Source: Stentor roeselii (Eukaryota; Ciliophora; Heterotrichea; Heterotrichida; Stentoridae). Taken from it: a stretch of 64,000 nucleotides of DNA. The notes under the pieces were generated by a model. It searched no databases. It was not told the origin of the DNA and was given only the letters and a program-made list of their open reading frames with translations. Positions 14,517 through 57,001 of this stretch are shown here, piece after piece (position 1 is the stretch's first letter; each line of letters starts with the position of its first letter). The stretch is taken from positions 1 to 64,000 of the forward strand of contig RSEH01000221.1 in assembly GCA_006503475.1 (NCBI GenBank), in the 5' to 3' direction. The translations under genes were made by a program, and so were the position numbers.

Positions 14517-16445
14517 CTATTCAATATCTTCATATTCCTTCAGCCCGTCTTCCGCGAGTTCAGGTATTTCTTCATCTGAACTCTCATCATTCTGTAGTCC
14601 ACTCATGACACTTTGGATCCAAGTCGCTTGTTTCTCGATTTTCTGGTCGTCAGGGTGAACGAAAATCTCTTTTTTCACGTCTTTCTCAGGAAGGACTTCA
14701 AATTCTAAAGGAGCCAGGAAGTCGAGGCCGTAGTAAGAGTCTGACTTTACGATGACTTCCCAACGTTGCTTACCGGGCTTCAGGTTCAAAGCACCCGGGC
14801 CGATGGGAAACTTGAAGTCGGAGTCTTCAACGACGCGGTCTTGACTGAGGACAGGCTTCAGGTAAAAGAGTCTTTTACTTTCAGGGTCAGTTATAAGAAT
14901 CCACAGTTTTTCCAGCTTTAATCTAGGAAATTGAGAAGAATGGACCAGGCCTGCTTTTTCACCTTCTTGTAAATTAAGTCTTTCGATTTTTACTTTAACT
15001 GTCACTAAATCGCCTTCGGCGATTTTTTCTTTTTCTTTCTCGTCTTCCTCGTCGACGAAGGCTGATGCTGTGACTTTCAACTCGGGGAGGTAATGAAGGA
15101 CACTTTTGAAATCTGCGAAATTTGAAGGTGAGAGCTTTTCTTGAAGCTTTTTGAAGTCCGCGTCTTTGATTTCGCTGATTTTTGGCTTTTTCTTGCCGGT
15201 GAAGAGCTTTAAGTGGGACTCGTCAATGTGAGGCAGCATGAAAACGTTGCTATCATGAAGGCTGAGTCCTTGAGTTAAGAGTTGGGCGAATTCAAGAAGG
15301 ACTTCAAAAGTATGGATCGACATTTTCTTGGTCTTCGGCATCATGTTAAGCATAAAAGCGCCGTCAAGCATAGTTTCGACGAGATTTCCACATTTTTCTA
15401 AAATCATTTCAGTGTCTTTTTGCAGTGAAGGAGAAACTTCTCTTCGGTCCATGTGTGCGCAGAGTAAAAGAATGATTTTTAAGATTTTTGGGTTGATGTC
15501 TGTTCGTTTTGGGATCATTTCCAGGTACTTGTTTCGGAGTTTGTTTAATTCAGGACTTTCTGACTTTGGTAAAGGAAGGTCTTGAAATTCAAGACTAAGA
15601 GCGACCATTAAAAGACAGTGCTTTATAGTCATGTTTTCACTGAGAATCCTGACGTAAGTCCCCATGTTATCTTGAATAACTCCATTTTTATCAAGTCTTT
15701 TCGATGTCGAGATCCAGAAGATTATAGAACCTGGGATAAGAACCAAGATAATCACGAAGAAAACTATTAAGACTGATATATGGTTCTCTGTTTTCAGTAA
15801 AAATTGTGGCAAGCCGATTGAAAACTATTTAAAAGTTACTTTCACCGGACTGGGACCATCTGGGTTCCCGTATTTCTCATAATTCGCTCTTGCTAACTCA
15901 TTTGTTAAAGTTTCATAAGCCTTAGTTATTTGAATGTACTTTCCTGCTGCCCAGTTATTTCCTGGATTTTTATCTGGGTGGAAGACTCGACTCATTTCTC
16001 GAAATGCTTTTTTTATTTCTTTGTCTGTTGCTCCGATTTGAATGCCTAGGATTTCGTAAGGGTCGAATCTTTTAATCCCTTCAGGCGAACTCATAATTGC
16101 CAGGTAAGTTTCATAGGCCAGATAAAGAAACAATACAATTAAAAGCAGGTGAAAAAGTCCTGAAAAGCCAAATCGTCTTGATTCAGTCTTTTGATGAGTG
16201 ATCCTCAATTGTTGGATTGACTTGCATCTTGAACAAGAACAGTTTCGAGTCATTTTATCTAAATTAGAAATCGAAGGGCCTTCCACGGATTTCCCGAAAA
16301 TGCGATTTTTTATAAAGGTGTAGATAAGAGGAAGTAAAACTAGGATCTCGATAACTCCTGCAAAGTAGTAAAAGGCTGAATCGTCATAGTCCAGGTTTTT
16401 TTCACCGCCTTCTTCCTTTGTAAAAGTTTCCTTGAACCCTGACAT
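14517..16445 (-). CDS. SEC63: Sec63, ER translocon J-protein (one 15-nt intron)
   Basis: Two exons, 15840-16445 and 14517-15824, are joined by removing GTAACTTTTAAATAG (15825-15839), giving 637 residues. The splice restores the Sec63 segment after the J domain (EKYGNPDGP, then FSIGLPQFLL). Membrane helices lie at about 26-46 and 98-117, the J domain at about 126-192 with HPD at 156-158, a third helix comes just after the splice, then the Brl domain and an acidic tail (DDEQ... EEIPELAEDG). Sec63 recruits BiP to the Sec61 channel for post-translational import. Its length fits the family. The tail is important for Sec62 binding in other species. Confidence 0.95.
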
Positions 16446-16696
16446 TTATTAGACATGTGGAGAAAGGGCAGAGGGGGAATGTTTAAGTGAGTTTAGAGAA
16501 AAACTGCATTTTTTTGAGATTTTTTGAGAATTTTAAGTGTTTTTTTAGGATTTTTTGAAAATTTGGGTTTTAGGGGAATTTTTTTAGATCTTGCTTGAAC
16601 ATGATTGATGAAAGTTGAAGCATTTAGATGAAAATAGGGAATTTTTATTAAAGATCGAATTTAGGCTCGAAAGCCAGATTTTCTGTTAATTTTAAA

Positions 16697-16860
16697 GGCG
16701 GGGAGGCGACAAGCGCACGACCCCACTGCCAGAAATTTAGTAGTCAGCTGTCCCACTCGGGAAGCTGTAGGGCTTTACAGCATCTTAGTGCGAATGACCT
16801 GCTCCACCCTAAGTAGTCTTCCTTCTTGATCGAAGACTGACTCCAACCAGGTAAGTGAAT
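16697..16860 (-). ncRNA. U1: U1 spliceosomal snRNA
   Basis: On the minus strand the 164-nt segment has every U1 landmark in order. The 5' end carries ACTTACCTGG, complementary to CAGGTAAGT 5' splice sites. Stem-loop I is a perfect 7-bp stem AGTCTTC/GAAGACT with loop GATCAAGAAG; the human U1-70K loop GAUCACGAAG differs at one base. Stem-loop II has loop ATTCGCACTAA (human AUUGCACUCC, the U1A site). Stem-loop III is CAGC..CCC/GGG..GCTG. The Sm site is AAATTTCTGG. The final GC-rich stem-loop IV is GTGGGG..CCCC. The exact 5' end is uncertain by a few bases. An 86-codon frame overlapping it is spurious. Confidence 0.94.
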
Positions 16861-16875
16861 AAATCTCCATTTTGG

Positions 16876-16884
16876 TTATAAATA
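16876..16884 (-). promoter_or_regulatory. TATA-like element upstream of U1
   Basis: On the minus strand, TATTTATAA lies about 16-24 bp before the inferred U1 5' end. It is the only TATA-like word close to the gene. Whether it drives transcription, and whether a separate proximal element exists further upstream, cannot be told from one gene. Confidence 0.4.
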
Positions 16885-17803
16885 CTTGATTTTCTTGAAT
16901 ATAATATGGGACAGGAATAGTTTTATTGGGTATATGGAAATTTTGTGAAGTTTGGACTTTTAAAGATTGGGAATGTTGGAGATTAGATATTGGAGATGTG
17001 TAGAAAGAGTTAGAATAGGAAGGGATGTTTTTCATTGTGGATTTTTTTTTAAAGGATTTTTTTAAGGATTAGTATAGAACTTGAAGCAAGAAATTTTGAA
17101 ATGTTGGAAAGGTTGTATGCTATTTATTAAATGATGTCAAAATAGAATGAATTTTTTGTTTAAAATTTCTATAAATTGTCTTATTGAATATAGTTTAAAA
17201 TTTAGAGAGATTCTCTATCAAATGTAATTTTAGAATCTACTTTACACAAATTAAATAATCATAGGCCAAATCTATTCAGTTACACTAGAATAAAAGTCTA
17301 ATTTTTCATTAAGAATTACCACTAAACTTAATAATAGTATTCTGTTTTTCCAATTACGAAAATTTATCATAATGCTGACTTTCAAAAAAATCTAAATTTC
17401 TAAATATCTTGAATCAAAGAAACCCACAATAAACTTTATCATCACTAACCAACAAAATTATCTTCAAATCTTAACCCCTCAAACTACCTTAAAACACTAA
17501 CTTAATCCCTCTCATAATAATCATCCTAACATAACCTTAAACTCCTCTACCCTCTAAATACTCTCAACATCTAAAAACCAAAATCCCAAAAACCCTTCAA
17601 TCACCCAACTCCAAACCTCTAAAATCCAACCCTAAAAAACCCTAAAAAAAACCCAATATAACCTCAAAAAAATGCAAACCATTCTCCTCATAAATTCCTT
17701 GATTCCAAAACCTCTAACACCCTAAAAACTTCCAATCTCTCAAAACCAACTCATCCACCTTCAATCAAACCCTTCTTAAAAACCACTCACTAACGTTCAA
17801 TAA
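16885..17803. other. Intergenic, with a 254-nt G-free tract
   Basis: No gene seen. The left part is the G/T-rich upstream side of the minus-strand U1 gene. Positions 17420-17673 contain no G on the plus strand and form the distal leader of the kinase gene starting at 17804. Words such as aaccctaaaaaaccc occur, but there is no regular telomere-type array. Confidence 0.7.
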
Positions 17804-56227: not shown

Positions 56228-57001
56228 CTATTCTTGTACATGAACCACAGTCACAGACACGTCAGCATCTTTCGCAATAGTCTCATTGGTATTACTAGCG
56301 ACAGTGGCCTTCGCCTTCCTCTTCATCATAATGAATTCAAAAGTAGTCAATCCAAGAATCTTAAGCCTTGCATGAAAAACAATTAAATAAACCATCCAAA
56401 TCAAAGTAAAAAAGCTATAAACAATAAGCAGGACAATTTCCACAACCCAACATTCATCATCATGATATTTTTCATAATTTTTCCATCGATTCCCTTCAAA
56501 AAGATTTCCCTTTAAAAAAAACTCTGTGAAAACAATGACAGAAACAACAAGCAACGTTAAAGAATTCATCAAAAATGAAAATAAACAAAAAACAAAGCTT
56601 TTATAGTTCTTTTTCCCGATGCAGTTATTGACCCATTTGCAGTGATGATCAAAAAAATAAACACATCGATCACATTGGATGCAATGTTTGCTGTTTTTGT
56701 TTACTGTTGACTTGCATGGCGGGCAGTAACCTGAAGTGCTTTTGTTTTGAATGACGATTTGAAGACGACTTGTGACATCTGTTGGGTCTGACAAGGTCGT
56801 CTTCGCACCGAAGTAAATGATTAGCAAATAGGAAAAGTGGTATATCAGTGAGTAGACTGCCTATATTTTAAATACTTTGACACTCTCTGGAAGCACTGGT
56901 AAAATACTTAGGTCGTTCATTGTGATCTGAGCTATTAGACTTAGCCAGAGAAATATTTGAAAAGGGTGTAAAGGCCAGCTAAGCCCATTCTTTCGAGTCA
57001 T
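56228..57001 (-). CDS. DHHC palmitoyltransferase, one intron
   Basis: Exons 56876-57001 and 56228-56860 are joined by removing GTATTTAAAATATAG (56861-56875), giving 252 residues. Two N-terminal membrane helices (HPFQIFLWLSLIAQ, and the segment restored by splicing) precede the Cys-rich DHHC domain: YCPPCK, HCIQCDRCVYFFDHHCKW, VNNCIGKKNYKSF. Two more helices and the TTFEF motif (TTxE family signature) follow. The enzyme transfers palmitate to cysteines at Golgi or plasma membrane; its products are substrates of thioesterases such as 13550-14188. Size is small but typical. Confidence 0.95.

Follow-up and report, generated by a model that had tools for sequence, protein, structure and literature searches.

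The window, meaning the whole 64,000-nucleotide stretch of Stentor roeselii DNA analysed here, contains a U1 snRNA gene on the minus strand at 16697-16858. An Rfam covariance search aligned this segment to the whole U1 model (RF00003, 1-166) with 84.9 bits (E 1.4e-19), above the gathering score of 69.5 bits, and this is the only Rfam match in the window at or above the gathering score. The sequence-only reading had proposed a U1 gene on this strand, with a covariance search as its check. The strong score over the full model bears this out, and on sequence grounds the segment is confirmed as a U1 snRNA gene. The folding energy of the 164-nt stretch was not better than that of shuffled sequences (z -0.56; 55 of 200 shuffles as good) and was dropped as evidence. 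The identification as U1 thus depends on three things: covariance score, motifs, and flanking elements.

The 5' stretch, the loop of stem-loop I, the Sm site, and the GC-rich stem-loop IV had all been described as lying in the right order, and the Rfam alignment and the sequence agree. On the minus strand, the stretch that pairs with the 5' splice site, ACTTACCTGG (that is, ACUUACCUGG), lies at 16847-16856; its ACUUACC (16856-16850) is present and fully canonical. Stem-loop I (16815-16838) carries the loop GATCAAGAAG, equal to GAUCAAGAAG, which we take to be the U1-70K site. Human U1 has C in this loop at one base where A is found here; the Rfam consensus also has a. Stem-loop II (16769-16810) has an 11-nt loop, AUUCGCACUAA, and is followed by stem-loop III (16745-16768). 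The Sm site AAATTTCTGG, or AAAUUUCUGG, was recognized from the sequence at 16729-16738, between stem-loop III and the GC-rich stem-loop IV (16697-16726). All four stem-loops were placed by the Rfam alignment and the fold. The gene thus resembles the Rfam family in its 5' ACUUACC, the four ordered stem-loops, the Sm site, and the full-length match above the cut-off; it differs in the loop of stem-loop II. This loop had been read as a canonical U1A-type loop, but it is of the U1A type with one inserted C: in AUUCGCAC the C interrupts the AUUGCAC core and is treated as an insertion in the Rfam alignment. The AUUGCAC of the U2 counterpart loop is intact.

The 5' end of the RNA should lie within 16856-16860. 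The Rfam alignment starts at 16858, and both A16856 and A16860 are compatible with the promoter spacing. Counted from the upstream CCC, the first A follows at a spacing of 55 in U2 and 54 in U4; a U1 start at A16856 would correspond to 54, and one at A16860 to 50. A spacing of 50 is also seen for a possible A start of the U12 candidate described further on, so the whole interval is retained, and a length of 164 nt cannot be asserted. The earlier statement that the RNA starts at 16860 and has exactly the length of human U1 was therefore an assumption.

Some 250 bases separate the U1 gene from a downstream Sec63-like gene in the same orientation (14517-16445, minus strand), which contains DnaJ and Sec63 domains (Pfam PF00226 and PF02889). 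A 15-nt intron, GTAACTTTTAAATAG, at 15825-15839 on the minus strand joins two exons of this gene, and would introduce an in-frame TAG if retained. An 86-aa ORF (16775-17035, minus strand) overlaps U1. It has no Pfam match, and its codon score is -0.025 per codon, as compared with 0.09 to 0.12 in the neighbouring genes, on a scale derived from long ORFs in this DNA. A real protein was ruled out on these two grounds; the ORF looks spurious, as had been supposed. The stop codons are standard: 103 long open frames end with TAA (49), TAG (44), or TGA (10), and TGG makes up 0.9% of codons. Blepharisma differs in this respect, since UGA is read as tryptophan there according to the available part of PMC9942806.

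The flanks of five snRNA genes (U1, U2, U4, U5, and U6) were compared after alignment by their Rfam ends. The box TCCCATA is found at 16905-16911 on the minus strand, and is common to U1, U2, and U4 at a like distance. The box AGTATT at 16881-16886 (minus strand) recurs at -28 to -30 in U1, U4, and U5. Downstream, AACAGAA at 16681-16687 (minus strand) is the same 7-mer as that after U2, U4, and U5. These boxes resemble the control elements typical of snRNA genes: a proximal sequence element, a TATA-like box, and a 3' box. The CCCWTA box starts 52 (U1), 55 (U2), 54 (U4), 53 (U5), and 59 (U6) bases upstream. The TATA-like box lies at -28 to -31 in all five genes, with TACTTA in U2 and AGTATA in U6. 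AACAGAA starts 10, 12, 11, and 10 bases downstream of U1, U2, U4, and U5, respectively, and was not found after U6. Such agreement is rare by chance: a common 7-mer in register, as TCCCATA is in U1, U2, and U4, occurred in 3 of 20,000 random trios, and one placed as AACAGAA is in U1, U2, U4, and U5 occurred in none of 20,000 random quartets. No 4-mer is common in register to all five upstream regions, since U5 has TCCCTTA and both U2 and U6 vary. A genome-wide search with the promoter pattern gave 42 matches, as against 41 for the reversed pattern, so the pattern is no detector by itself. Five of the 42 matches are snRNA genes (U1, U4, U5, U6, and the U12 candidate).

Short introns were collected from 264 kb, consisting of the window, 140 kb of C17, and 60 kb of C18. 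In this set, 33 GT-AG 15-mers join open, coding-like frames, and A stands at position 10 in 32 of them, in agreement with the 15-nt introns first noticed. GTA starts 28 of the 33 and GTG starts 2; the three with neither start, one of which lacked A10, were removed to leave 30. A codon-score filter on 90-base flanks proved too weak for picking introns, and the whole open-frame length was used with the score instead. The filter keeps introns whose retention interrupts the frame. It favours T at 13 with the final AG (phase 0) and can also favour A at 10 (phase 2); the bias lies mainly at the 3' end. Among the 30 introns, information is high at +1 to +4, +10, and +13 to +15; the exon positions, -4 to -1 included, hold almost none (0.04 to 0.27 bits; 0.10 to 0.27 bits at -4 to -1). 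Position +5 is G in 14/30, and +6 is T in 11/30. The crude motif spacing GTAA...TAG gave a weak signal at 15 nt (32 cases), yet 28 to 32 cases were counted at several other lengths. There was no sign of 16-nt introns: the same type of filter on the 264 kb gave no 16-mer with GTA and A at -6. The tiny size of the introns and their A at position 10 point to a heterotrich ciliate near Stentor.

Over positions -4 to +6, U1 can pair with the 15-nt introns at 5.5 of 10 positions on average. A possible course of events may be outlined as follows. RNA polymerase II would transcribe U1 from the TCCCATA and TATA-like promoter; the AACAGAA box would set the 3' end; and Sm proteins, U1-70K, and U1C would assemble on the RNA. 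The ACUUACC of U1 would pair with the 5' splice site mostly at +1 to +4, because the exon positions -4 to -1 are nearly uninformative and G is found at +5 in only 14/30. The branch-point A is likely at +10, and U1 pairing may reach +6, so that the U1 and U2 pairings would nearly touch. U1 therefore probably leaves, or passes the site to U6, no later than when U2 docks. The sequence-only reading had also held U1 to be of direct interest for how short introns are defined. The 15-nt introns stand, but the insight specific to U1 is weaker, because the pairing stretch is fully canonical, as reported for Stentor in the available text of PMC9505925. Since U1 is canonical and single-copy in a genome with introns of 14-15 nt, the RNA that recognizes the 5' splice site would itself not have been reshaped to suit tiny introns, and the adaptation would have to be sought in proteins, in timing, or in a rule that fixes the intron length.

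Apparent 14-nt introns were found beside the 15-nt introns. Sequences with a GTA start and A six from the end numbered 4 at length 14 and 21 at length 15, and 0 to 3 at the other lengths from 10 to 30. The pattern GTAA..TA..YAG occurred 3 times at length 14 and 8 times at length 15, once each at 11 and 28, and never at the other 17 lengths in this range. Protein homology supports two cases. The 14-nt GTAAAGGTAAATAG at C18:25408-25421 (plus strand) lies in an OXA1-like gene with a Pfam 60KD_IMP match; after its removal, the encoded protein matches human OXA1L (E 1e-15) in an alignment that is ungapped at the exon junction. The 14-nt GTAAATTTAATCAG at L030:1491-1504 (plus strand) lies in a two-RRM U1A/U2B'' gene, whose product gives ungapped alignments with human U2B'' and U1A. 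A wider net for 14-nt introns gave 11 rows at 10 sites. Five of these and L030:1491-1504 make the six accepted cases, picked after inspection: C17:71521 (minus strand), and C18:7916, C18:8115 (doubtful), C18:25408, C18:38555, and L030:1491-1504 (plus strand), of the form GTAAA...A....G. The sites at 56704, 13979, and 8820 of the window, C17:47523, and C18:18412 were left out for poor coding scores. The possible 14-nt intron GTAAACAAAAACAG at 56691-56704 of the window (minus strand) lies just upstream of a DHHC-like coding stretch, and the coding score of its upstream exon is poor.

These sequences might instead be 15-nt introns from which one base was lost in assembly, a possible explanation to which we give the smaller weight. 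Several of the cases fall in short homopolymers, and there are six accepted cases in all, selected after inspection from about 1% of the genome and the fetched loci. However, the six come from separate loci, and all of them start with GTAA followed by A, as compared with A at +5 in 4/30 of the 15-nt introns (Fisher p 1e-4, post hoc). Lengths 14 and 15 also stand out together from 10 to 30 under GTAA..TA..YAG, and the two introns placed by homology leave no gap in the protein. The sequences are more probably true 14-nt introns. In the parts of the literature available, heterotrich introns are about 95% 15 bp with the rest 16 bp (PMC11441545), Blepharisma introns are predominantly 15 and 16 bp (PMC9942806), and 15 nt in Stentor is the lower end of intron sizes (PMC12862383). 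The 15-nt class is dominant here as well; the remainder there is 16 bp, whereas here it is apparently 14 nt. No 14-nt heterotrich intron was found in the literature searched, and the available parts of PMC11441545 and PMC9942806 do not mention one. If true, the 14-nt introns would lower the smallest size known for the spliceosome, and would provide a direct steric test of U1-U2 co-occupancy.

Candidates for two minor-spliceosome RNAs were also found in the assembly. The sole match to the U12 model (RF00007), at C513:33061-33189 on the minus strand (L037:1501-1629), scores 36.4 bits (E 2.3e-4), below the cut-off of 53. Its 5' region is CUGCCUGAAACUAUGAGUAAGGAAAAUA, and UGCCUGAAACUAUGAGUAAGGAAAAUA is retained. 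Its flanks contain TCCCATA with CCC at -52, AGTATT at -28, and AACAGAA at +6. The promoter-pattern search independently places a match exactly upstream of this candidate; from the genome-wide count of the pattern, the chance of a match so placed is about 3e-6. The U6atac (RF00619) candidate, at C206:178445-178552 on the plus strand (L076:1501-1608), scores 37.7 bits, above the cut-off of 33, and keeps the GGAGAGA..UUAGC core. TCCCATA lies upstream of it (CCC at -56) and six T stand at its end; the AGTATW box is absent. Its ACGGAGAGA corresponds to AAGGAGAGA in the Rfam consensus (L076:1501-1530), a change that might be matched by a different minor 5' splice site. Each candidate thus keeps features of its family, the 5' region in U12 and the core in U6atac, and the U12 candidate departs from its family in falling below the cut-off. 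Rfam identified neither U11 nor U4atac among the 37 other promoter-pattern sites.

These candidates suggest, from their sequences, that there might be a minor spliceosome. Both matches might also be due to chance or be relics, with one spliceosome only. The U12 score is below the cut-off, and at E <= 1 matches occurred in 3/14 control genomes for U12 and in 8/14 for U6atac, none of them above the cut-off. The search for U12-type introns in 312,035 bases (<1% of the genome) gave 4 rows at 2 sites, none convincing, and the counts of U12-type half-motifs in the 64-kb window are at chance level. The promoter pattern, as noted, is also not enriched genome-wide. This explanation seems unlikely, because the U12 candidate retains UGCCUGAAACUAUGAGUAAGGAAAAUA together with all three flanking boxes and a promoter placement hardly expected by chance, and U6atac is above the cut-off with TCCCATA and the six terminal T, though without AGTATW.

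On balance, it seems plausible that two spliceosomes operate in one nucleus whose introns are the smallest known. The major one, with a single-copy canonical U1, would act on introns of 15 nt (branch A at +10) or 14 nt (branch A at +9), and the minor one would contain U12 and U6atac. This would be in a lineage in which the sole heterotrich study found (PMC9505925, available text) reports no U11, U12, U4atac, or U6atac for Stentor coeruleus with the same Rfam families. The available part of PMC10946202 describes the use of minor-spliceosome models, and states that all snRNAs are present in two spirotrich ciliates, minor ones included or not being unstated; no priority is therefore claimed for a minor spliceosome in ciliates as a whole. 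Should U12 and U6atac be active, a second spliceosome would have been kept, or brought back into use, in heterotrich-like ciliates. The question would then be how U12-type introns fit into a genome of such short introns.

The major snRNA set has one match each for U2, U6, U5, and U4 in the assembly, all above the cut-off, with part of the first-look candidates scored. U1 likewise gave one covariance-model match in 44,391,514 bases and 522 contigs, with 41 of 502 first-look candidates taken to scoring. The 164-base segment, used as the query of a DNA search, found only itself. No better U1 was thus found than the one first proposed; the assembly might be incomplete, so "single" means single within its sequence.

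Partners of U1 are encoded as well. A 275-aa open frame on C508 with the N-terminal domain and the RRM matches U1-70K (72.7 bits), and its top PDB match is U1-70K (E 2e-52). U1C was found on C402 (69.1 bits; PDB U1C, E 1e-12), in a zf-U1 family search that also exceeded the cut-off in 1/14 control genomes, E. coli; a second, weaker zf-U1 match is on C518. Two U1A/U2B'' relatives were identified, a single-RRM protein on C402 (49% identity to human U1A) and a two-RRM protein on C378, with five further, weaker matches. The genes of U1C and the single-RRM relative are at most 2 kb apart (L027 and L029, C402:78983-80968). In prokaryote contigs, a search for U1C yielded a single weak match, in a Sungbacteria record.

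The U1 gene looks functional, as judged from the TCCCATA and AACAGAA boxes common to other snRNA genes and from the encoded U1-70K, U1C, and two U1A/U2B''-type proteins. It is almost certainly the single functional U1 gene in a ciliate-like genome whose introns measure 15 nt and, apparently, also 14 nt. A pseudogene or silent copy, with the working U1 outside the assembly, was ruled out as highly improbable: the insertion in the U1A-type loop and the split of the assembly over 522 contigs would fit it, but the promoter and 3' box are intact with spacing as in U2, U4, and U5, the four stem-loops and the Sm site are all retained, and neither the covariance search (41 of 502 candidates scored) nor the DNA search found a second copy in the assembled sequence.

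As a U1, the gene is ordinary. The available text of PMC9505925 (Nuadthaisong 2022) already describes the five major snRNAs, U1A, U1C, and U1-70K, introns of 15 and 16 nt, and the standard code in Stentor coeruleus. The present genome is similar in the U1 ACUUACCU, the five major snRNAs, the 15-nt introns with A at 10, and the standard code. It differs from that description in showing no sign of 16-nt introns, in the apparent 14-nt introns, and in the U12 and U6atac candidates. The value beyond the U1 gene is in these candidates, the apparent 14-nt introns, and the common promoter and 3' box, which offer a simple handle for finding more small RNA genes in the genome.

Among the 37 promoter-pattern sites that are not snRNA genes, Rfam gave one sub-threshold match, to vault RNA (29.1 bits, cut-off 34), at L047. 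This site and L048 (C179:69975-70335 and 70891-71251) look like two facing small-RNA genes with U6-type promoter spacing, and the start sequence of L048 is identical to that of L047.
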